37,122 nucleotides of DNA from Candidatus Cloacimonadota bacterium (GTDB lineage Bacteria > Cloacimonadota > Cloacimonadia > Cloacimonadales > Cloacimonadaceae): positions 1 through 37,122 of the forward strand of contig JAKPXC010000009.1 of assembly GCA_029567705.1 (NCBI GenBank), given 5' to 3'. The stretch's first letter is position 1; every line of letters starts with the position of its first letter. Shown piece by piece: positions 25,930 to 36,664 of the stretch. A program made the translations under genes and the position numbers. The notes below the pieces were generated by a model that searched no databases, was not told the DNA's origin, and saw only the letters and a list, made by a program, of their open reading frames with translations.

Positions 25930-25995
25930 TTCTGCCGCACTTCCGCCGCAGTTCCGCCGCCCCGGCGGCGGAACTGCGGCGGAAGTGCGGCAGAA
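25930..25995. repeat. 32-bp perfect inverted repeat with 2-nt spacer
   Basis: TTCTGCCGCACTTCCGCCGCAGTTCCGCCGCC-CC-GGCGGCGGAACTGCGGCGGAAGTGCGGCAGAA. Confidence 0.95.
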
Positions 25996-26212
25996 ATCCA
26001 GCAGCGGGCTATCAGAATCTTCTTGCCAAGCTGCACAGGAGACCCATCATAAGCTTCCAGGGTGATCATACATCAAGCAAAATCTACTTATTCAGTAGGA
26101 TAGGAGGAGATGCAGACTCTGTGGTTGTCACTCATCCAGGTATAAAGAAAACCTTGACGTTATGGACTGGTATTTTTTCATGTGAACTAATGAAAAAATG
26201 CAGGTGATTTTG

Positions 26213-26560
26213 ATGACCTTACGAGATGTAGCCAAGCTATTGGAAGCTGAAATACTCACTTCCGAAACGGATCTTGACCGTCCTGTACCTTGTGCTTTTG
26301 CCTCCGATTTAATCAGCGATATATTGATGTGCACCAAAGAGCCCACTTTGTTGCTGACCGGATTGGCCAACACTCAAGTGATTAGATTGTCGGATATGAT
26401 AGACATCACGGCAATAGTCTTTGTGAGGGGTAAACAGCCCTCTCAGGAACTGGTGGAAATGGCGGTGGAAAGAGGCCTTCCTCTTCTGCGTACAAAGCTC
26501 ACGATGTACAGATCCAGCGGTTTGTTGTATAGTTCCGGTTTGCGCAGTTGCGCTATTTGA
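26213..26560 (+). CDS. DRTGG domain protein
   Basis: Similar architecture to 28371-28712; start refined to ATG 26213 behind AGGTGA; first gene of the hydrogenase gene run. Confidence 0.8.
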   Translation: MTLRDVAKLLEAEILTSETDLDRPVPCAFASDLISDILMCTKEPTLLLTGLANTQVIRLSDMIDITAIVFVRGKQPSQELVEMAVERGLPLLRTKLTMYRSSGLLYSSGLRSCAI

Positions 26561-26567
26561 TGGACTT

Positions 26568-27059
26568 ATGGCAGAATACTGGAACATAGCCCCGGAACGA
26601 AAGGAATTTGTGGAGTCCTTTTTCAAGGACTGTCCCGAGCCAGAAGTGAGCCTGGAGTTCATTATCACCGAAAAGGACTTCAATACTGCCGGAAAAGGCA
26701 GTGCGGAGATCAAGAACCTGCTTAAACGGCTGGGGATAGATTCTGAGATCCTGCGCCGGGTGGCGGTTGCTTCCTACGAGGCCGAGATAAATGTCGCAGC
26801 CCACTCGGTGGGTGGCAGGATGACATCCAATGTTTACGACGAGCTCATCCACATCCGTTTTGAAGATAATGGCCCCGGAATCGCCGATATTGCCCAGGCT
26901 ATGACTCCAGGGTTCTCCACAGCGGATGATTTGGTGAGAGAAATGGGTTTTGGTGCCGGTTTGGGCCTGTCCAATATAGAAAAGAACTCCGATATGCTTC
27001 ATATAGTTTCAGAACGGGGTAAAAACACCGTTTTGGAGCTTATGATCTTCTTTGGCTAG
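26568..27059 (+). CDS. ATP-binding protein, HATPase_c/anti-sigma-factor-like serine kinase
   Basis: VASYEAEINVAAHSVGG N-box, FEDNGPGIADI, GFGAGLGLSNI. Confidence 0.88.
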   Translation: MAEYWNIAPERKEFVESFFKDCPEPEVSLEFIITEKDFNTAGKGSAEIKNLLKRLGIDSEILRRVAVASYEAEINVAAHSVGGRMTSNVYDELIHIRFEDNGPGIADIAQAMTPGFSTADDLVREMGFGAGLGLSNIEKNSDMLHIVSERGKNTVLELMIFFG

Positions 27060-27064
27060 AGAAA

Positions 27065-28360
27065 GTGGCTGAGATTAAATCAAAATACTTCCATGCAATT
27101 AATATTCTAACGGATAACTGCACCGGGTGTACCGCCTGTGTGAGGGTTTGCCCCACAGAAGCCATCCGGGTACGGAACCGTAAGGCCGAAATAGATCCCA
27201 ATCGTTGTATAGACTGCGGTAACTGCCTCACGGTATGCCAGTTTCATGCTATCATTCCCAAATCAGACTCACTCGAGATTCTGCAAAACTTCAAGCATCG
27301 CGTAGCAATAGTATCCAGCTCTTATGCGGGGCAGTTTACTGAGGATATCAGCTATAGCGCAGCCAAACAAGCCCTCTTTGCTCTGGGATTTGATGAAGTC
27401 TTTGAAGAATCCATGGTTACGGAATTCATGATCCGCATGATAAGGGAATATATCAGGGCAAACCGAGATAAGCGTCCCATCCTCTCCAGCAATTGTCCTG
27501 CTGTAGTGCGTTTGATTCAGGTTAAGTATCCCTCACTATTGCCCAATCTTTATCATCAGGAAGCCCCCATGAGCATTCTGACCCGGTATTTGAGGGAGAA
27601 GATTGTAGCCGAAAAAGGGTTGCAGGATTCTGAGCTGGGCATTTTCCTGATCGTACCCTGTGTGGCGCACGTTACAGCCGTTCATCAACCTGAAGGGGCT
27701 TACAAACATCTGCAGGACGGCGCATTTTCTATCGGAATGATTTATGGCAAGGTGCGGGAATATCTGAAGGATGCAGTGAATAACCCTGCCGATGTGGAGA
27801 CCTATAGCAAGGGGCTCACCTGGGCTCTGAGCGGAGTTCAGGCCGAGCTGGTGGATTGCGAGGATATTCGGGCGCTGTCCGTCAATGGCGTCGAGAATGT
27901 GAAAGATATTCTTTCCCGGGTGGAAGACCATTATCTGGACCAGTATGACTATATCGTCCTCAGAAGCTGCACAAATGGCTGTGTGGGCGGTTGCCTGAAC
28001 ATCGAGAATCCCTTTGTGGCTATGAGCCGGATAAAAAAGATCATCAAAGAAGCACCCGCCCGGGAGATCAACGTCGATCCTCTGGCAAAACTGAGTGAAG
28101 CAGGTGAATTCGACGTGGCGCCTTTGCAGCCGCGTTCTATAATGGAGCTTGATAAAGACATCAAGAATGCCATCAAGAAGATGAAGAAGATCAATGAGTT
28201 TCTGATCATGCTTCCTGGCCTGGATTGCAGCGCTTGCGGAAGCCCTTCCTGCTATGCTCTGGCCGAAGATATCGTGCAGGGCAAAGCTTCCATCGATGAT
28301 TGTGTGGTGCTCTTGAAACGCCACAACCGGGAAGAAGCAGATTCCGAATATAACGAATAG
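27065..28360 (+). CDS. HydS-like (group C/D-type, putatively sensory) [FeFe]-hydrogenase with N-terminal 2[4Fe-4S] and C-terminal Fe-S (CxxCxxxxC) domain
   Basis: GTG start. CTGCTACVRVCPTEA/CIDCGNCLTVC; H-cluster-like motifs SSNCPAV, VPCVAH, RSCTNGCVGGCLNIENP; GLDCSACGSPSCYALAEDIV. Confidence 0.9.
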   Translation: MAEIKSKYFHAINILTDNCTGCTACVRVCPTEAIRVRNRKAEIDPNRCIDCGNCLTVCQFHAIIPKSDSLEILQNFKHRVAIVSSSYAGQFTEDISYSAAKQALFALGFDEVFEESMVTEFMIRMIREYIRANRDKRPILSSNCPAVVRLIQVKYPSLLPNLYHQEAPMSILTRYLREKIVAEKGLQDSELGIFLIVPCVAHVTAVHQPEGAYKHLQDGAFSIGMIYGKVREYLKDAVNNPADVETYSKGLTWALSGVQAELVDCEDIRALSVNGVENVKDILSRVEDHYLDQYDYIVLRSCTNGCVGGCLNIENPFVAMSRIKKIIKEAPAREINVDPLAKLSEAGEFDVAPLQPRSIMELDKDIKNAIKKMKKINEFLIMLPGLDCSACGSPSCYALAEDIVQGKASIDDCVVLLKRHNREEADSEYNE

Positions 28361-28370
28361 GAGAAATCTA

Positions 28371-28712
28371 ATGATAACTTTAAAGGACTATTTGGCAGCA
28401 ATTGGCGGCCATAACCTCACCCCCGGGATTGATCCCGAAAAGATACAGATCAAGGGTGCATATGTCTCCGATATGCTTTCCGATGTGATGGGAAACGGCA
28501 AAGCCGAATTGATTTGGATCACCATCATGAAGCATCTTAATGTGATAGCGGTTGCTTCTATGACCTCAATCCCTGCGGTGCTTTTTGCCAAGGGAGTGGT
28601 TCCGGAAGCTTCGGTGATTGAGAAAGCTCTGGAAGAAGACGTCTGCCTCATTACCAGCCCGTTGAGCACATTTGATCTGGCAGGCATCCTGTATAAGATG
28701 CTGGGTTTATAA
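28371..28712 (+). CDS. DRTGG domain protein
   Basis: KGAYVSDMLSDVMGNGKAELIWITIMKHLNVIAVASM; embedded in the hydrogenase gene run. Confidence 0.82.
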   Translation: MITLKDYLAAIGGHNLTPGIDPEKIQIKGAYVSDMLSDVMGNGKAELIWITIMKHLNVIAVASMTSIPAVLFAKGVVPEASVIEKALEEDVCLITSPLSTFDLAGILYKMLGL

Positions 28713-28722
28713 CTGCCTCTAG

Positions 28723-29457
28723 ATGCGAATATTTGCCTGTGATCTGCACATTCACTCAGTGCTATCTCCCTGCGGAGGGCTAGAAATGTCCCCCAGGGAT
28801 CTAGTGTCCAGAGCGAGAAGCTTGTCCATTGATTGGATCGCAATCACAGATCATAACTCCATGGCCAATTGTGCCGCCTATGCCTCAGTGGCAAAAGAGG
28901 CGGGCTTAGCTTTTAGCTGGGGAGTAGAGCTTCAGACCTCTGAAGAAATCCATCTTTTGGTGTATTTTGATGATGCTGATGCGGCGCAAGCATTTGATAA
29001 GGAGCTATATGCATCGCTTCTGCCTCTGGAGAATGATCCGGATTTCTTGGGTGACCAAGTTGTTATTGACGAAAATGAGCAGATTCTAAGAATGGAAAAC
29101 CGTGCTCTGATCAATTCCTCGCTATGGGATCTGACTGAAGCCTGCGAGAAAGCCCGCAGTTTTGGCGGTTATGTGGTGCCAGCACATGTGGATGCGGGAG
29201 CCAACAGCATCCTGAGTCAATTGGGTATGATGCCGGAAGAACCGAGTTTTGATGCCTTTGGCATCACGGCAGGTTTGGATACCGCCAAGTTCGTCTTGCG
29301 TAATCCCTGGTTCAAGGGGAAGAGCCTGCTGCGAAGCAGCGATGCCCACTATTTGGCAGATTTGGGCACGGGAATAGCCAGAATCCGATGCCAGGAGCCA
29401 TCCGTAAAGGAACTCAGGCTGGCTTGCTTGAGCCTTGATGATAGAAGATTAGAATAA
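28723..29457 (+). CDS. PHP domain-containing metal-dependent hydrolase/phosphatase-like protein
   Basis: CDLHIHSVLSPCGG, AITDHNSM, VVPAHVDAG, RSSDAHYLADLG. Confidence 0.9.
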   Translation: MRIFACDLHIHSVLSPCGGLEMSPRDLVSRARSLSIDWIAITDHNSMANCAAYASVAKEAGLAFSWGVELQTSEEIHLLVYFDDADAAQAFDKELYASLLPLENDPDFLGDQVVIDENEQILRMENRALINSSLWDLTEACEKARSFGGYVVPAHVDAGANSILSQLGMMPEEPSFDAFGITAGLDTAKFVLRNPWFKGKSLLRSSDAHYLADLGTGIARIRCQEPSVKELRLACLSLDDRRLE

Positions 29458-29480: not shown

Positions 29481-29963
29481 ATGACTCCCTCGAATCAGTT
29501 TGACAACAAACTCTATGAACAGCTTAAGGCTGTGATTGCCGAGAAGAAAGAACTTCAGAACCCGGTGATCGAGATCCTGAGGATAGCCCAGGAGATTTTT
29601 GGCTATCTGCCCATAGAAGTGCAGGAATTCATTGCCAATGAGCTGGGAATTCCGGCCAGCAAAGTCTATGGGATAGTAACCTTTTACAACTTCTTCTCAA
29701 TGAAGCCCCGCGGCAAGTACATCATCAATGTCTGCACCGGTACAGCTTGCTTTGTGAAGGGTGCTCCCCGCCTGATCACCATGCTCACGGATCAACTGGG
29801 TATCCAAATGGGTGAGACCTCTCCCGATGGCAAGTTCAGCTTGAATTCTGTGCGCTGCGTTGGTGCCTGCTCTTTGGCTCCGGTCTTTGTGATCGGCGAA
29901 GAGACTTATGGCCGCATCGATACCAAGGACAAGATCGTACAAATACTGAAACAATACGAGTAA
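29481..29963 (+). CDS. hydC: NuoE/HydC-type [2Fe-2S] subunit of bifurcating hydrogenase
   Basis: SKVYGIVTFYNFFSMKPRGKYIINVCTGTACFVKGA...VRCVGACSLAPV; four Cys ligands. Confidence 0.93.
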   Translation: MTPSNQFDNKLYEQLKAVIAEKKELQNPVIEILRIAQEIFGYLPIEVQEFIANELGIPASKVYGIVTFYNFFSMKPRGKYIINVCTGTACFVKGAPRLITMLTDQLGIQMGETSPDGKFSLNSVRCVGACSLAPVFVIGEETYGRIDTKDKIVQILKQYE

Positions 29964-29975
29964 GCGGATAGAGCT

Positions 29976-30545
29976 ATGCAAGATATCTCCTTGCACCTTT
30001 TGGACGTGATCGAGAATTCCGTTCGTGCCGGTGCAAAACAGGTTAAACTCCGGGTTATCCAGGATATCAGATCCAATCTTTTGCGTCTGATCATTGAGGA
30101 TAATGGTGTCGGTATGGATTCCGAGACCTTGGACATGGCTCAAAACCCCTTTTACACTACGAAAGAGGAAAGGGAAAAGAAAGTCGGGCTGGGAATTCCG
30201 CTCTTCAAACAGAATGCCGAGCTCTGTGAAGGCTCTTTCAATATAGCCAGCGAGCCGGGCTTTGGCACTGTGATGACGGTGGATTTCACCCTGGATCATA
30301 TAGACAGAATGCCTCTGGGTAACCTCAAAGACACTCTCTTGGGATCCATGATAGGCCATCCGGAAGTGGATTTTTACGTGAATCTGATCTATCAAAGCGG
30401 GTGCTGCAAACAAAGCTTCCTCTTTGATACTGCTGCAATTAAAGAAGAGCTGGGAGACATCCCGCTCACATATCCCGATGTGATAGAATACATCGATCAA
30501 TCATTATTAGAAGGAATACAAAATACAAGGATGGAGGATGTCTGA
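29976..30545 (+). CDS. histidine-kinase-like ATPase (HATPase_c) protein
   Basis: LHLLDVIENSVRAGA N-box, IIEDNGVGMD, PFYTTKEEREKKVGLGIPLF. Confidence 0.9.
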   Translation: MQDISLHLLDVIENSVRAGAKQVKLRVIQDIRSNLLRLIIEDNGVGMDSETLDMAQNPFYTTKEEREKKVGLGIPLFKQNAELCEGSFNIASEPGFGTVMTVDFTLDHIDRMPLGNLKDTLLGSMIGHPEVDFYVNLIYQSGCCKQSFLFDTAAIKEELGDIPLTYPDVIEYIDQSLLEGIQNTRMEDV

Positions 30546-30910
30546 TGAAAACACTGGCAGACCTTAAGAAAATTCGCGAGAAAGCTCAGGAAGAAATGAA
30601 GCTTCGCGGTGGTAACGTTCGTATGAAGATAGTGGTGGGGATGGGAACATCCGGCATCGCTATGGGTGCCCGCGAAGTCATGAAAACCTTCCTGGAAGAG
30701 ATCTCCAATCGAAGCCTGACTGATGTCCTGGTGACACAGACAGGGGAAAAAGGGCTTTCATCTATGGAACCTGTGGTGGATGTGATCGAAGAAGGTAAAG
30801 AAAAAGTTACCTACGGCAACATGAGCCCGGAAAAAGTCAAGAAAGTGGTGGTAGAACATATCGTTAATGGCAGAATAGTCTCCGAATACGTAGTCGCCAC
30901 AGGCAACTAA
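30545..30910 (+). CDS. HndB-like thioredoxin-fold ferredoxin homologue lacking all cysteines
   Basis: KIVVGMGTSGIAMGAREVM...VTQTGEKGLSSMEPVVDV matches the HndB/(2Fe-2S) ferredoxin layout, but no Cys residues are present. Confidence 0.85.
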   Translation: MKTLADLKKIREKAQEEMKLRGGNVRMKIVVGMGTSGIAMGAREVMKTFLEEISNRSLTDVLVTQTGEKGLSSMEPVVDVIEEGKEKVTYGNMSPEKVKKVVVEHIVNGRIVSEYVVATGN

Positions 30911-30921
30911 GGGGGCTGGGA

Positions 30922-32775
30922 ATGTCACTCAAACGTATCGATCTCCTGATCTGCTGTGGATCCGGTTGTGTATCAGCCGGAGCTTTGAAGATTAAGGAGA
31001 GGTTCTTCCAAGTTCTCTCTGAGAAAGGGCTAAGCCACGAAATCAATATCATCGAAACCGGTTGCATGGGCCCTTGTGATTATGGCCCTGTGATGGTGAT
31101 CTATCCAGAAGGAATCTTCTACAAGAAGGTTACTCCGGAAGATGTCGATGAGATTGTCTCCGAGCACTTCGAGAAAGGACGCCCCGTCAAGAGACTTATG
31201 CTGCAGGATGAAGAAACTACCATTGCTGCACACAAAGACGTACCTTTCTACCAGAAGCAAGTGAAAGTTGCTCTGGAGAACTGCGGCTACATCGATCCCG
31301 AAAGTCTGGATGAGTACATCGCTACCGGTGGTTATGAGGCACTGGGAAGAGTTCTCACCGAAATGCAACCCCTGGATGTGATCGAAATCATCAAAGCCTC
31401 CGGCCTGCGCGGTCGTGGCGGTGGTGGGTTCCCCACTCACATCAAGTGGAAAATGGTGCACGATGCCAAGGCAGACCAGAAATATTACATCTGCAATGGT
31501 GACGAAGGAGATCCCGGAGCCTTTATGGACAGGTCTCTTTTGGAAGGCGATCCTCACAGAATCCTGGAAGGGATGATGATAGGTGCCTATGCCATGGGCG
31601 CTTCCAGAGGTTTCCTCTATATCCGTGCCGAGTATCCCCTGGCCATTGCCCGTATCAAGAATGCCATCAAACAGGCCAAAGAATACGGTCTTATGGGTGA
31701 GAATATCTTTGGCACCAGCTTCTGCTTCGATGCCGAAGTTCGCACCGGAGCCGGTGCTTTCGTTTGTGGTGAAGAGATGGCTCTGATCCACTCCATCGAA
31801 GGTAACCGCGGTAATCCCACCCCGAAACCTCCCTATCCTGCCGTGAGCGGTTTGTGGGGCAAGCCCACAGTCGTGAACAATGTCGAAACCCTCGGCAATA
31901 TACCCACCATTGTCCGTAAAGGGGCAGAATGGTTCTCTTCCATGGGAACTGCCACCTCCAAAGGCACCAAGGTCTTTGCCCTCACCGGTGATATCAAAAA
32001 CACCGGTCTGGTCGAAGTACCAATGGGTATCACCCTTCGCGATCTGATCTTCGACGTGGGTGGCGGTATGGTGGAAGGACGCAAGTTCAAAGCCGTGCAG
32101 TTGGGTGGACCCTCCGGAGGTTGCCTCACCACAGAACATCTCGATGTGCCCGTCGATTATGAGACCCTTAAAGAAAAGGGTGCCATGATGGGTTCCGGTG
32201 GTGTGATCGTGATGAACGACCAAAAGTGCATGGTCAATGTGGCCAAGTTCTTCATGGATTTCTGCGTGGAAGAATCCTGTGGGAAGTGCTCTCCCTGCCG
32301 GATTGGTCTCAAGCAAATGTACGAGATCCTGGTTCGTATCACCGATGGTAACGGCCGCGAAGGCGATATTGAGGAACTGATCAGACTCGGTGAATCAATC
32401 GGCAAGCTCTCGCTCTGTGGTCTGGGACAGACTGCTCCAAATCCTGTTCTCAGCACCATCCGTTACTTCCGCAATGAATACGAAGCCCACATTCGCGATA
32501 AAGCCTGCGCCACCAAAGTCTGTCTGCCTTTGATGCACTTTAGTATCGACAAGAACAAATGCATCGGCTGCTCACTCTGTGCCCGCAAATGTCCCGTGAA
32601 CTGCATAACCGGTTCCCGCGAAGAAAAATATACCATCCACCAGTTGGATTGCATTAAGTGTGGCAATTGCCAGGAAGTATGCCCCGTGAAAGCCGTTGAA
32701 CGTATCCCCGGCATGCATCCTGAAGTAATCGCCCATAAAGAAGCAGAAAAGAAACGTCTCGAAGCCGAAGATTAA
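30922..32775 (+). CDS. hydB: HydB/HndC-type NuoF flavoprotein with N-terminal Trx-like [2Fe-2S] and C-terminal 2[4Fe-4S] domains
   Basis: CCGSGC/GCMGPC, GRGGGGFPTHIKW, GDEGDPGAFMDRSLLEGDPH, ESCGKCSPCRIGL, CIGCSLCARKCPVNC/CIKCGNCQEVCPVKA. Confidence 0.95.
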   Translation: MSLKRIDLLICCGSGCVSAGALKIKERFFQVLSEKGLSHEINIIETGCMGPCDYGPVMVIYPEGIFYKKVTPEDVDEIVSEHFEKGRPVKRLMLQDEETTIAAHKDVPFYQKQVKVALENCGYIDPESLDEYIATGGYEALGRVLTEMQPLDVIEIIKASGLRGRGGGGFPTHIKWKMVHDAKADQKYYICNGDEGDPGAFMDRSLLEGDPHRILEGMMIGAYAMGASRGFLYIRAEYPLAIARIKNAIKQAKEYGLMGENIFGTSFCFDAEVRTGAGAFVCGEEMALIHSIEGNRGNPTPKPPYPAVSGLWGKPTVVNNVETLGNIPTIVRKGAEWFSSMGTATSKGTKVFALTGDIKNTGLVEVPMGITLRDLIFDVGGGMVEGRKFKAVQLGGPSGGCLTTEHLDVPVDYETLKEKGAMMGSGGVIVMNDQKCMVNVAKFFMDFCVEESCGKCSPCRIGLKQMYEILVRITDGNGREGDIEELIRLGESIGKLSLCGLGQTAPNPVLSTIRYFRNEYEAHIRDKACATKVCLPLMHFSIDKNKCIGCSLCARKCPVNCITGSREEKYTIHQLDCIKCGNCQEVCPVKAVERIPGMHPEVIAHKEAEKKRLEAED

Positions 32776-32784
32776 GGAGTACTT

Positions 32785-33240
32785 ATGTACAAAGAAATCT
32801 GCAGTAAATACGCTCCAAGCAAAGACAACCTGATCTACATTCTGCACGAGATTCAGGATACTCACCCGCAGCACTACATCTCTGAAGATGCCGTGCAGGC
32901 CGTGGCGGAGTACCTTAATATAACCGCGAACCACATCTATGGCGTGCTGACTTTTTACTCCATGTACAGCACGAAACCCCGTGGTCGCAACATCATCCGC
33001 CTCTGCGAATCACCACCCTGTTATATCAAAGGCAGCGACAACATCCTCCGCAAGCTCAAAATAGAGCTGGGCGTGGAAGTCGGCGGTACTAGCAAGGATG
33101 GAGATTTTACCCTCGAGCTCTGTGCTTGCCTGGGTGTATGCGGAAACGCCCCTGTGATGATGATCAACGACGATGTCTATGGTGATCTCACAGAAGAGAA
33201 GGTTGAGGAAATCCTTGAGAAAATCAGGAGGAAGAGATAA
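32785..33240 (+). CDS. second NuoE-type [2Fe-2S] subunit
   Basis: NHIYGVLTFYSMYSTKPRGRNIIRLCESPPCYIKGS...CACLGVCGNAPVMMI. Confidence 0.93.
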   Translation: MYKEICSKYAPSKDNLIYILHEIQDTHPQHYISEDAVQAVAEYLNITANHIYGVLTFYSMYSTKPRGRNIIRLCESPPCYIKGSDNILRKLKIELGVEVGGTSKDGDFTLELCACLGVCGNAPVMMINDDVYGDLTEEKVEEILEKIRRKR

Positions 33241-34802
33241 TGAAGTTCTATCGTAATCACGTCCTCATCGGTATCAGCGAAATGGCTATCCAAGCCGGAG
33301 TGGAAGACTTTGTCAAAGCCTTCCGCAATGAGCTGGCCAAAGCTGATCTCACGGAAGAGATCAACGTTCTGGAAACCGGTCCCTTGGGCTTCTTCGGTAA
33401 AGGCATCTGCCTTACCGTCTATCCTGAAAACATCAATTACACTGATGTCAAACTTGAAGATGTTCAGGAGCTGGTTAGCGAGCATTTCCTCAAAGGCAGA
33501 CCGGTTACCCGTCTTACCCTGGAATCCGGCTTAAAGTTCAGCCCCAAGTTCAACTATGAAAGCCGCATTGTTCTGCGCAATTCCGGTATTATCGATCCCG
33601 AAAGCATTGATGAATACATCGGTGCCGGTGGATACGAAGCCTGGGAAAAAGCCCTCACCCAGATGCAACCCACAGACATCGTGAACGAGATGAAAGCCTC
33701 GGGATTGCGTGGCCGTGGCGGTGCAGGATTTCCCACCGGTTTGAAGTGGAGCTTCACAGCTCCTCTCCAGGCAGAGCAGAAGTATGTGGTCGTTAATGCC
33801 GACGAAGGCGAGCCCGGCACATTCAAAGACCGTTTGATCATGGAAGGTGACCCGCATCAGCTCTTGGAAGGCATCATGATCTGTGCCCGAGCCATCGGAG
33901 CCACCAAAGCCTGGATCTACATACGCGGTGAATACAAGCTCTGTATCGAACGCTTGCGCCATGCCATCAAGCAAGCCACAGAATATGGCATCCTGGGCAA
34001 GAACATCTTCGAAAGCGGCTTTGATCTCGAGATAGACCTCAAGATCGGTGCCGGAGCTTATGTCTGCGGTGAAGAAACTGCTCTCATCGAATCCCTCGAA
34101 GGCAACCGCGGTAATCCCCGCTGGAAACCACCCTTCCCGGGAGTTAAAGGCCTCTGGCAATGCCCCACAGTCGTGAACAACGTTGAAACCCTGGCCAACG
34201 TTCCCTGGATCATCAAAAATGGCGCTGAAGCTTACAAACAGCATGGCACCCCTGAATGTTCTGGAACCAAGGTTTACACCATTCTGGGTGACGTTGCTCA
34301 CCCCGGTCTCTGCGAAATTGATATGGGCACCACTTTGCGTACCATTATCAACGAATACGCCGGTGGCATGAAGAAAGGCTTCAAGTTCAAAGCTGCGCTG
34401 GTTGGTGGAGCTGCAGGTATGATCCTTCCCGATCGTCTTCTAGATGTGAAGATGGATTTTGCCAGCCTCAATCAATATGCTGCCGTACTTGGCAGCGGAG
34501 CCATCCTGGTGATGAACGAGCATCAGAGCATAGTCGATATGCTCTGGAGCATCCTGCGTTTCTTCCGTCATGAATCCTGCGGCAAATGCGCCCCCTGCCG
34601 AAACGGTTCCCAACAGCTTTACAAGCTGATCACCAAGATCAAAAGCGGTAAAGGAAGCTGGGAAGACGTTGAACTGATGCAAAGCATTGCAGAAACTATG
34701 CTGAACACCTCGTTCTGCGCCCTCGGACAATCCCCGATTATGGCCATCCGCAGCGCAATCGAGAATTTCAAAGATGAATTCATCGAAATTACGAATAAAT
34801 AA
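33240..34802 (+). CDS. second NuoF-type flavoprotein, no C-terminal ferredoxin domain and no Cys ligands in N-terminal Trx-like domain
   Basis: GRGGAGFPTGLKW, NADEGEPGTFKDR, GAYVCGEETALIESLEG, ESCGKCAPCRNG; N-terminus VLIGISEMAIQAG...ETGPLGFFGKG. Confidence 0.94.
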   Translation: MKFYRNHVLIGISEMAIQAGVEDFVKAFRNELAKADLTEEINVLETGPLGFFGKGICLTVYPENINYTDVKLEDVQELVSEHFLKGRPVTRLTLESGLKFSPKFNYESRIVLRNSGIIDPESIDEYIGAGGYEAWEKALTQMQPTDIVNEMKASGLRGRGGAGFPTGLKWSFTAPLQAEQKYVVVNADEGEPGTFKDRLIMEGDPHQLLEGIMICARAIGATKAWIYIRGEYKLCIERLRHAIKQATEYGILGKNIFESGFDLEIDLKIGAGAYVCGEETALIESLEGNRGNPRWKPPFPGVKGLWQCPTVVNNVETLANVPWIIKNGAEAYKQHGTPECSGTKVYTILGDVAHPGLCEIDMGTTLRTIINEYAGGMKKGFKFKAALVGGAAGMILPDRLLDVKMDFASLNQYAAVLGSGAILVMNEHQSIVDMLWSILRFFRHESCGKCAPCRNGSQQLYKLITKIKSGKGSWEDVELMQSIAETMLNTSFCALGQSPIMAIRSAIENFKDEFIEITNK

Positions 34803-34824: not shown

Positions 34825-36609
34825 ATGGCTAAAACAGTCAATGTTTGGATTGATGGACACCATCTGGAAGTTCCCGAGACGATGACCATCATCGAAGCCG
34901 CTGATCAGTATGGGATCAACATCCCACGTTTGTGCTACCATCCGGACCTCCCGCCCACAGCCAATTGCGGTGTCTGCGTGGTTGAACTGGCCGGCAGTCC
35001 CACTCCCAAACGTGCCTGCTGCACACCTGTGGCAGAAGGCATGAAGATCATCACCAATTCCAAGAAACTGCGTGCCTATCGCAAGACCTTGGTGGAGATG
35101 ATTCTTTCCAACCATGAAGTTGTGTGCCCCACCTGTGCCGCAAACAACAAATGCGAGTTGCAGAGCCTGGCAAACAACCTGGGTGTGGATCCCGAAGCCC
35201 TTCCCAATATTCTTGAGAAGAAACCTGTTGATCTCTCCAGCCCTTCCATCATCCGCGACGTCAACAAATGCATAGCCTGCGGACGCTGCGTGACCGTCTG
35301 TAATGAAGTACAGACCGTCTATGCTCTTACCTTCAGCGATCGTGGTATCGATGCCCACATCGACACCGCCTTCTCAAACGGCATGGCTTCCAGCCCCTGC
35401 GTCAATTGCGGTCAATGCACCGTCTATTGCCCCACCGGTGCCCTGCGTGAAAGAAGCGAGATCGACGAAGTCTGGGAAGCAATTCTGGATCCCGAAAAGC
35501 ACGTTGTGGTGCAGGAAGCTCCTGCCATCCGTGTGTCCCTGGCTGAAGAATTTGGCATGGAACTGGGAACAGTAACTGCCAAGAAGATGTATGCCGCTCT
35601 TCGTAAGATCGGTTTTGACGCCATTATGGATACCAATTTCACCGCTGACCTCACAATCATGGAAGAAGGCACGGAAGTGGTGAATAAACTCAAAGCCGGA
35701 GAAAAACGTCCCACCATCACATCCTGCTCACCCGGTTGGATCAAATTCATGGAAACCTATTATCCCGATCTGGCAGATTGCGTCTCGACCGCCAAATCCC
35801 CTATGAGTATGTTTGGCGTGCTCTCCAAGACCTATTATGCCCAAGAACAGGGAATAGATCCTGCCAAGATAGTCTCCGTTGCAGTGATGCCTTGCACCGC
35901 CAAGAAGTTCGAAGCCCGCCGTCCTGAATTGCGCGACAGCGGTTATCAGGATACTGATTATGTGCTCACCACCCGTGAGTTTATCCGTATGATCAAGGAA
36001 GCTGGTATCGATTTCAAGTCCATCAAAGAAGAGGATGCCGATGAAGGCATGAGCTTCTACACTGGTGCAGGTACCATCTTTGGTGCCACCGGTGGTGTGA
36101 TGGAAGCTGCCATCCGCTCCGCTTACACCCTGGTAACAGGCGAAGAGCTGGAAGCCATCGACGTCACAGCCGTTCGTGGCCTGAAAGGAACCAAGGAAGC
36201 TACTATACCGATCCCCGGTTTTGGCGATCTGAAAGTAGCCGTGGCCCACGGTCTTTCCAATGCCCGTGTGCTGATGGATGCTATCCGTGAAGGTTTGAAC
36301 ACCACAGGCGAATCCCCCTGGCACTTCATCGAAGTGATGGCTTGCCCCGGTGGTTGCGTTGGTGGCGGTGGACAGCCTTATGGCAATAACATGGCAATGC
36401 GTGCCCGTCGTGGCGAAGGTCTCTATGAAGAAGACCGCAAGCTCACCTATCGCAAGAGCCATCATAACCCGGAAGTCAAGCGTATTTACGAACGCTTCCT
36501 GGGCGAGCCCAACAGCCCTCTGGCTCACAAACTGCTCCATACCCACTACTTTGAACGCTCGGTGAATACCGGTAAAGTGGTCAAAGAAGCTACCCACAAA
36601 CATCACTAA
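34825..36609 (+). CDS. hydA: [FeFe]-hydrogenase catalytic subunit, HydA/HndD type
   Basis: N-terminal 2Fe-2S, HEVVCPTCAANNKC, CIACGRCVTVC/CVNCGQCTVYC, H-cluster motifs TSCSPGWIKF, MPCTAKKFE, MACPGGCVGGGGQP. Confidence 0.97.
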   Translation: MAKTVNVWIDGHHLEVPETMTIIEAADQYGINIPRLCYHPDLPPTANCGVCVVELAGSPTPKRACCTPVAEGMKIITNSKKLRAYRKTLVEMILSNHEVVCPTCAANNKCELQSLANNLGVDPEALPNILEKKPVDLSSPSIIRDVNKCIACGRCVTVCNEVQTVYALTFSDRGIDAHIDTAFSNGMASSPCVNCGQCTVYCPTGALRERSEIDEVWEAILDPEKHVVVQEAPAIRVSLAEEFGMELGTVTAKKMYAALRKIGFDAIMDTNFTADLTIMEEGTEVVNKLKAGEKRPTITSCSPGWIKFMETYYPDLADCVSTAKSPMSMFGVLSKTYYAQEQGIDPAKIVSVAVMPCTAKKFEARRPELRDSGYQDTDYVLTTREFIRMIKEAGIDFKSIKEEDADEGMSFYTGAGTIFGATGGVMEAAIRSAYTLVTGEELEAIDVTAVRGLKGTKEATIPIPGFGDLKVAVAHGLSNARVLMDAIREGLNTTGESPWHFIEVMACPGGCVGGGGQPYGNNMAMRARRGEGLYEEDRKLTYRKSHHNPEVKRIYERFLGEPNSPLAHKLLHTHYFERSVNTGKVVKEATHKHH

Positions 36610-36632: not shown

Positions 36633-36664
36633 AGCCGGAAGGAATTGCTCCTTCCGGCTTTTAC
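36633..36664 (+). terminator. intrinsic terminator of the hydrogenase gene run
   Basis: AGCCGGAAGGA-ATTGC-TCCTTCCGGCT followed by TTTT. Confidence 0.85.

Follow-up and report, generated by a model that had tools for sequence, protein, structure and literature searches.

What do five signalling-type genes, one of them encoding a hydrogenase-like protein, do at the head of a hydrogenase operon? The question is raised by a 37,122-nt stretch of DNA from a Candidatus Cloacimonadota bacterium (GCA_029567705.1, contig JAKPXC010000009.1, positions 1-37,122, forward strand), here called the window; its own genome, a metagenome-assembled genome (MAG), is termed G000, and other G- and L-numbers denote the genomes and loci compared. 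We find that these five genes make up a signalling cassette, which is conserved in several bacterial phyla. HydS, the hydrogenase-like protein in it, is more likely to sense the redox state of the cell than H2.

The five open reading frames (ORFs) are intact on the + strand (26198-26560, 26568-27059, 27065-28360, 28371-28712 and 28723-29457 in the ORF list), with intergenic gaps of 7, 5, 10 and 10 nt and then 23 nt to the HydC1 gene. They begin a 12-gene + strand run in which HydA comes last, followed by a terminator-like hairpin. The first-pass annotation had described five signalling-type genes contiguous with the hydrogenase genes, and the ORFs, short gaps and domain matches agree with it. 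The five are:

26213..26560, + strand: DRTGG1, 115 amino acids; the ORF opens at 26198, with the conserved start Met at 26213
26568..27059, + strand: HATP1, 163 amino acids; a SpoIIAB/RsbW-like GHKL kinase without an acceptor domain
27065..28360, + strand: HydS, 431 amino acids; two [4Fe-4S] clusters, an H-domain and a C-terminal Cx2Cx4Cx16C motif
28371..28712, + strand: DRTGG2, 113 amino acids; a second DRTGG-like protein
28723..29457, + strand: PHP phosphoesterase, 244 amino acids

The order DRTGG1-HATP1-HydS-DRTGG2-PHP, with the same orientation, recurs in 16 order-level Cloacimonadota genomes and is complete wherever the contig permits. A scan of the collection yielded 80 named loci across Cloacimonadota, Bacillota, Bacteroidota, MAGs labelled Thermodesulfobacteriota or Myxococcota, and Calditrichota; nearly all of those with sufficient flank carry the cassette, with exceptions such as L080, L081 and L093, which miss some of its genes. 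As a guard against circularity, a second search used a query whose relevant part was the HATPase: 97 of about 200 Clostridia-class genomes matched, and 94 loci were examined. DRTGG1 lies upstream of the HATPase at 92 of these 94 loci and HydS downstream at 91 (90 by script, plus L210 by eye, where a 416-amino-acid ORF fills the HydS slot); two of the remaining three reach a contig edge, and L249 is a real exception. Among 61 Cloacimonadota genomes, HydS, HATP1 and DRTGG1 are jointly absent from nine. Chance adjacency of the five genes is rejected by the same order and orientation in order-level relatives and in other phyla, and the co-occurrence with HydS that had been proposed as a check is thus found well beyond this genome.

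The cassette has no fixed enzyme beside it. The typical downstream block is HydC-HATP2-TrxX-HydB, followed by a variable partner: HydA in the window family and at most Clostridia and Bacteroidota loci; a molybdopterin formate-dehydrogenase-like subunit at L037, L042, L045, L046, L110 and L113; Rnf at L075, L077, L088, L103, L126 and others; and no catalytic partner after HydBC at L039 and L041. The cassette follows the HydC-HATP2-TrxX-HydB block more closely than any single catalytic subunit, and it tracks ferredoxin/NAD enzymes generally (HydBC with HydA, formate dehydrogenase, HydBC alone, Rnf), not HydA. We therefore reject HydA as the fixed partner, and the earlier proposal that HydA is the target of the signalling is not supported in view of these other neighbourhoods.

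The domain scan of HydS gives two [4Fe-4S] domains, Fe_hyd_lg_C and an FeS domain (PF04060), with no match to a PAS domain, and its AlphaFold2 model (predicted local distance difference test score, pLDDT, 93.5) has the [FeFe]-hydrogenase fold. The layout is that of group D (M2e): two N-terminal [4Fe-4S] clusters, the H-domain and C388-x2-C391-x4-C396-x16-C413. By spacing, R35/R37/K40, D387, S393, E401/D402 and D412 correspond to R30/R32/K35, D378, S384, E392/D393 and D403 of the group D protein TamHydS; TamHydS positions throughout were placed by motif spacing and group A residues, not from the TamHydS sequence itself. All four H-cluster cubane cysteines are kept (C144, C199, C302 and C306). 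As a side observation, the cubane Cys of the L2 motif (C355; C199 in the window) is replaced by Ser in the HydS proteins beside formate dehydrogenase at L037, L042, L045 and L046.

The [2Fe] pocket is another matter. K358 in CpI forms hydrogen bonds at the [2Fe] site. Such H-cluster pocket residues are conserved in sensory HydS proteins (PMC10055695). In the window HydS, compared with CpI, C299 is replaced by N143, M353 by V197 (where group D is expected to have Ser or Thr), K358 by H202 and M497 by R300; the proton-path Glu pair of TamHydS, E252 and E289, is replaced by Q259 and V298. In TamHydS, E252 variants had less than 0.01% of H2 oxidation left and E289 variants at most 3% (PMC10407848). 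K358 is never Lys in any Cloacimonadota HydS examined, and most of these proteins are without the group D proton-path residues; the HydS of this phylum is probably unable to bind an H-cluster. Elsewhere the pocket is better kept: K358 is Lys at 81 of 90 Clostridia-class loci and in most other group D proteins, and 77 of those 90 loci read CCKEECC at the H-cluster residues.

The state of K358 also appears to go with the downstream partner. Outside Cloacimonadota, Lys is kept at all 73 loci that have HydA downstream vs 5 of 13 with only Rnf or formate dehydrogenase (Fisher p 2e-8, not corrected for kinship). The tree has four changes of K358 state, and an approximately unbiased test rejects a single clade for all the losses. 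A strict rule that Rnf or formate dehydrogenase downstream means loss of K358 is likewise rejected, since the Lys is retained at L113 and also at four Rnf loci of Clostridia.

HydS also persists where the site could not be built. The maturases HydE, HydF and HydG are all missing, and HydS is the sole H-domain protein, in the Cloacimonadota genomes G043 (100% complete), G060 (98%) and G049 (88%) and in the Bacillota MAG G107; the cassette is present in all four. Among Clostridia genomes HydG is missing from 5 of 9 with K358 lost vs 7 of 70 with K358 kept (Fisher p 0.003, again without correction for kinship). In G189, where the chromosome is one 2.45 Mb contig, a K-type HydS and its cassette stand directly ahead of an Rnf block, and a search for HydG in this genome found none. 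HydE and HydG were found in the window genome and HydF was not; sister genomes including G001 have HydF, and its lack in G000 is probably an assembly gap. It is because key pocket residues are lost and HydS is retained in genomes unable to build the site that we favour redox state over H2 as the signal; of the H2- or redox-sensing module put forward in the first-pass annotation, the H2 part is not supported in view of the loss of K358 and usually of the proton-path Glu pair, the persistence of HydS without maturases and the cassettes found beside formate dehydrogenase or Rnf.

The other four proteins look like parts of a switch. DRTGG1 matches its family at 26.3 bits (cut-off 25.2), and a near-invariant Met among its relatives aligns with residue 6 of the longer ORF, so that the start at 26213 chosen at first pass is probably right. 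Its AlphaFold2 model (pLDDT 94) has as best fold match the DRTGG structure 2ioj, followed by the CBS-DRTGG part of pyrophosphatase; it is closest to AF1212 and to the pyrophosphatase CBS-DRTGG regulatory part (3l31/3l2b). DRTGG2 of the window matches DRTGG weakly (16.7 bits, under the Pfam cut-off), and its orthologue at L134 passes that cut-off (29.6 bits). An invariant Asp and Ser spaced by three residues occur in both proteins, as D37 and S40 in DRTGG1 (120-amino-acid numbering) and as D34 and S37 in DRTGG2, where W49, T51, N57 and A62 are also invariant. HATP1 matches HATPase_c at 27.6 bits (cut-off 26.4), with SpoIIAB the nearest named family and the top hit of a profile search against structures (E 4e-11); its invariant boxes are E71-N75-H79, D100xGxG and GFGAGxGL, with a catalytic Glu in the N-box. 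As the first-pass annotation had stated, this kinase-like ATPase has no His-acceptor domain: the scans found neither HisKA nor another acceptor domain in it. A two-component system is rejected, the domain scans giving neither HisKA nor a REC/response regulator; among the operon genes scanned there was no STAS antagonist, sigma factor or PP2C phosphatase, and no DNA-binding protein was found in the operon. The fifth gene matches the PHP domain at 40.4 bits, and its likely metal ligands H9, H11, D43/H44, E69, H77, H155, D207 and H209 are invariant in 50 sequences; against the 3',5'-nucleoside bisphosphate phosphatase family it scores 36.8 bits, far under that family's cut-off.

A natural experiment in G059 bears on how these proteins are connected. 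Here a CBS-CBS-HATPase fusion (L134, 2385-3317), flanked by two DRTGG genes, sits where HydS would otherwise be; DRTGG1, DRTGG2 and PHP are kept, the cassette follows HydB, and HydS has no copy on the cassette contig and no close match in the genome. The swap therefore marks HydS as the input, or sensor, slot, and it is the strongest evidence for an input from HydS to HATP1. As a common variant the fusion is unsupported: it was seen only in G059, and a Clostridia search with it gave stand-alone HATPases. The idea put forward at first pass, that HydS is read by the HATPase and DRTGG proteins, is thus upheld as to a sensor-fed cassette (by co-occurrence, the CBS swap and the invariant HATP1 and PHP boxes), while the route of reading stays a conjecture.

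We propose, tentatively and at a little under even chances, that the cassette is a portable redox-signalling module for ferredoxin/NAD(H) oxidoreductases. HydS, derived from a hydrogenase, with its Fe-S clusters kept and its pocket degenerate in this phylum, would report ferredoxin/NADH redox poise rather than H2 as such, and its state would gate HATP1, which would phosphorylate proteins with ATP in the manner of SpoIIAB. DRTGG1 and DRTGG2 together would be the switch partner, the invariant Ser of each D-x-x-S motif being the best candidate phosphoacceptor, and the PHP protein would reset the switch by stripping off either phosphate or a nucleotide signal that is bound. Output might fall on the HydBC (Bfu) core, Rnf or the catalytic unit encoded alongside, with no transcription factor involved. 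We infer the direction of the kinase, the phosphosite, the PHP substrate, the redox ligand and the target. Somewhat more doubtful is the broader possibility that several separate recruitments have turned the hydrogenase fold into an Fe-S redox sensor that does not depend on H2 and that drives a SpoIIAB-like kinase/DRTGG/PHP switch over HydBC, formate dehydrogenase and Rnf across phyla.

Several points weigh against this redox-signalling proposal. The scheme leaves the Cys-free TrxX and HATP2 without a role. With HydE and HydG in the genome and HydA in the same operon, the window HydS might still be matured, and gaps in MAGs can imitate maturase loss (G126 has three HydA proteins and no HydG or HydF above cut-off). 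Only four phylogenetically independent pairs relate K358 loss to lack of HydA (three for, none against, one without difference; p 0.25), and the four K-type HydS proteins of the Clostridia Rnf loci adjoin Rnf all the same. Lastly, the characterised group D protein TamHydS does turn over H2 (PMC8163306).

We consider one rival explanation rather unlikely: HydS would be a true group D H2 sensor, as has been proposed for TamHydS, in which H2 reduces the H-cluster and a conformational change gates the HATPase, tuning the hydrogenase to H2 pressure. The window HydS keeps the group D signature residues at both ends and the four cubane cysteines, which suits such a sensor, as do the HydA gene of the operon, the HydE and HydG genes of the genome and HydF in G001; TamHydS has high H2 affinity, a HATPase neighbour and a place upstream of a bifurcating hydrogenase. 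Outside Cloacimonadota, where H-cluster residues are well kept, as in the CCKEECC loci, H2 sensing may hold. The replacements at K358, M353, M497, E252 and E289 of the window protein speak against it, the TamHydS variants at the last two having lost almost all H2 oxidation, as does retention of the cassette by maturase-free genomes; a better H2-sensor candidate in the window genome is its group C PAS-HydS, which has K358 intact and a SpoIIE phosphatase.

Eukaryotic Nar1/NARFL is an H-domain protein that serves Fe-S assembly, and a comparable role, assembly or repair of the HydBC/Rnf flavin-Fe-S core, is conceivable but unlikely here. The GHKL proteins would be chaperones, HydS would deliver or test Fe-S clusters, and the DRTGG and PHP proteins would handle a nucleotide or flavin intermediate. 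That the cassette follows the HydBC-HATP2-TrxX block over any one catalytic subunit, and that the operon has no DNA-binding protein, agree with this; HATP1, however, resembles SpoIIAB rather than Hsp90, the CBS domains in the HydS slot and the DRTGG domains speak for ligand-dependent regulation, and the nine Cloacimonadota genomes without the cassette tell against it too. Least probable to us is a nucleotide switch in which the DRTGG pair would bind an adenine nucleotide, as in the CBS-DRTGG pyrophosphatase, PHP would hydrolyse a nucleotide second messenger (pAp, for example) and the redox input would come from HydS. It draws on the match of the DRTGG1 model to the CBS-DRTGG regulatory domains, on the relation of PHP, metal ligands intact, to the bisphosphate phosphatase (well under cut-off) and on the CBS domains in the HydS place in G059, but it leaves the kinase boxes of HATP1 unexplained.

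After PHP, the run continues with seven further genes and closes with the hairpin:

29481..29963, + strand: HydC1, NuoE-like, 2Fe-2S thioredoxin fold
29976..30545, + strand: HATP2, a second GHKL ATPase, between HydC and HydB at most loci
30545..30910, + strand: TrxX, a Cys-free small protein of 121 amino acids, kept between HATP2 and HydB
30922..32775, + strand: HydB1, 617 amino acids; bifurcating-type NuoF with an N-terminal 2Fe-2S and C-terminal 2x[4Fe-4S]
32785..33240, + strand: HydC2, a second NuoE-like subunit, 34% identical to HydC1
33240..34802, + strand: HydB2, 520 amino acids, without the N-terminal Cys and C-terminal ferredoxin domain; non-bifurcating type
34825..36609, + strand: HydA, catalytic [FeFe]-hydrogenase, above the NCBIfam cut-off for NADH-dependent group A6
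36633..36659, + strand: intrinsic-terminator-like hairpin, 11 pairs with a T-rich tail

The two HydBC pairs thus stand in tandem (29481-34802), and L037 likewise has two HydB genes ahead of formate dehydrogenase. Because the HydB2 that immediately precedes HydA is without the extra clusters and HydA scores as NADH-dependent group A6, HydC2-HydB2-HydA may be a separate enzyme added onto a conserved nine-gene unit. The L1 motif of HydA reads TSCSPGW and not TSCCPGW, as it does in most of the HydA proteins compared (84 of 99). TrxX, which sits between HATP2 and HydB at most loci, belongs to no named family (best Pfam match 13.5 bits). Upstream of the operon, an intergenic GC-rich perfect inverted repeat of 32 nt with a 2-nt loop lies at 25930-25995, with no second copy elsewhere in the window. 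Positions 7-1258 hold an array of clustered regularly interspaced short palindromic repeats (CRISPR) with about 21 repeats, core GTATTCCCCACGCATGTGGGGGTGAACCG and a spacing of 61 nt, from which a spurious 'GSPPHAWGI/FTPTCVGN' ORF arises at 778-1248.

Parts of this picture are known. Earlier work describes group D HydS with a HATPase as neighbour and a bifurcating hydrogenase downstream (PMC8163306, PMC3608648). The window HydS resembles TamHydS in domain layout, C-terminal Cx2Cx4Cx16C, conserved Arg/Asp/Glu residues around the accessory clusters, lack of PAS, an adjacent HATPase and a place upstream of a bifurcating hydrogenase (PMC8163306, PMC10407848, PMC13104023); it differs in lacking K358, Ser/Thr at M353, E252 and E289, and the available text of these papers does not describe the DRTGG pair, PHP or the formate dehydrogenase and Rnf contexts. 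The 2026 TamHydS paper refutes the C-terminal cluster redox idea and calls for interaction partners (PMC13104023). Group C HydS/HfsB is similarly a sensory H-domain protein with Ser/Thr phospho-signalling neighbours, and deletion of hfsB alters redox products (PMC5707799, PMC11837493). That system has PAS and a SpoIIE/PP2C phosphatase, whereas the window HydS has no PAS and PHP stands in place of SpoIIE; the group C system of the window genome is separate, at L052 (contig C29, 994-6111), where HydA is accompanied by a group C HydS with a PAS domain and by a SpoIIE phosphatase. HATP1 shares its kinase fold, N-box catalytic Glu and invariant boxes with the SpoIIAB/RsbW partner switch, but in this operon DRTGG and PHP take the places of STAS, sigma factor and PP2C. 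The downstream HydBC core with varied catalytic partners is like the BfuABC electron-bifurcating family; the available part of its description covers the enzymes and mentions no such cassette (PMC9304861). In Cloacimonadota, an [FeFe]-hydrogenase assigned to 'Group C1' has been reported to follow a gene with a histidine kinase domain, and was noted as possibly sensory and near bifurcation subunits (PMC8542988). This is probably the same type of locus in the same phylum; the protein was counted as a hydrogenase, and the active-site and maturase evidence given here argues otherwise. A literature search for DRTGG together with hydrogenase gave only an unrelated co-mention, and no description of a redox-signalling class of this kind was found in the literature searched. 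As far as we have checked, what is new is the full cassette and its spread, its occurrence beside formate dehydrogenase and Rnf, the exchange of HydS for CBS domains, and the degenerate pocket together with the maturase-free genomes, although some of this may already have been published.

The mode of signalling of group D 'sensory' hydrogenases is an open question, for which four co-conserved partners can now be named. The sensor can be exchanged for CBS domains, and the cassette serves Rnf and formate dehydrogenase as well. A warning follows for genome annotation: hydrogenases are being attributed to Cloacimonadota genomes on the basis of a protein that is probably unable to bind an H-cluster.

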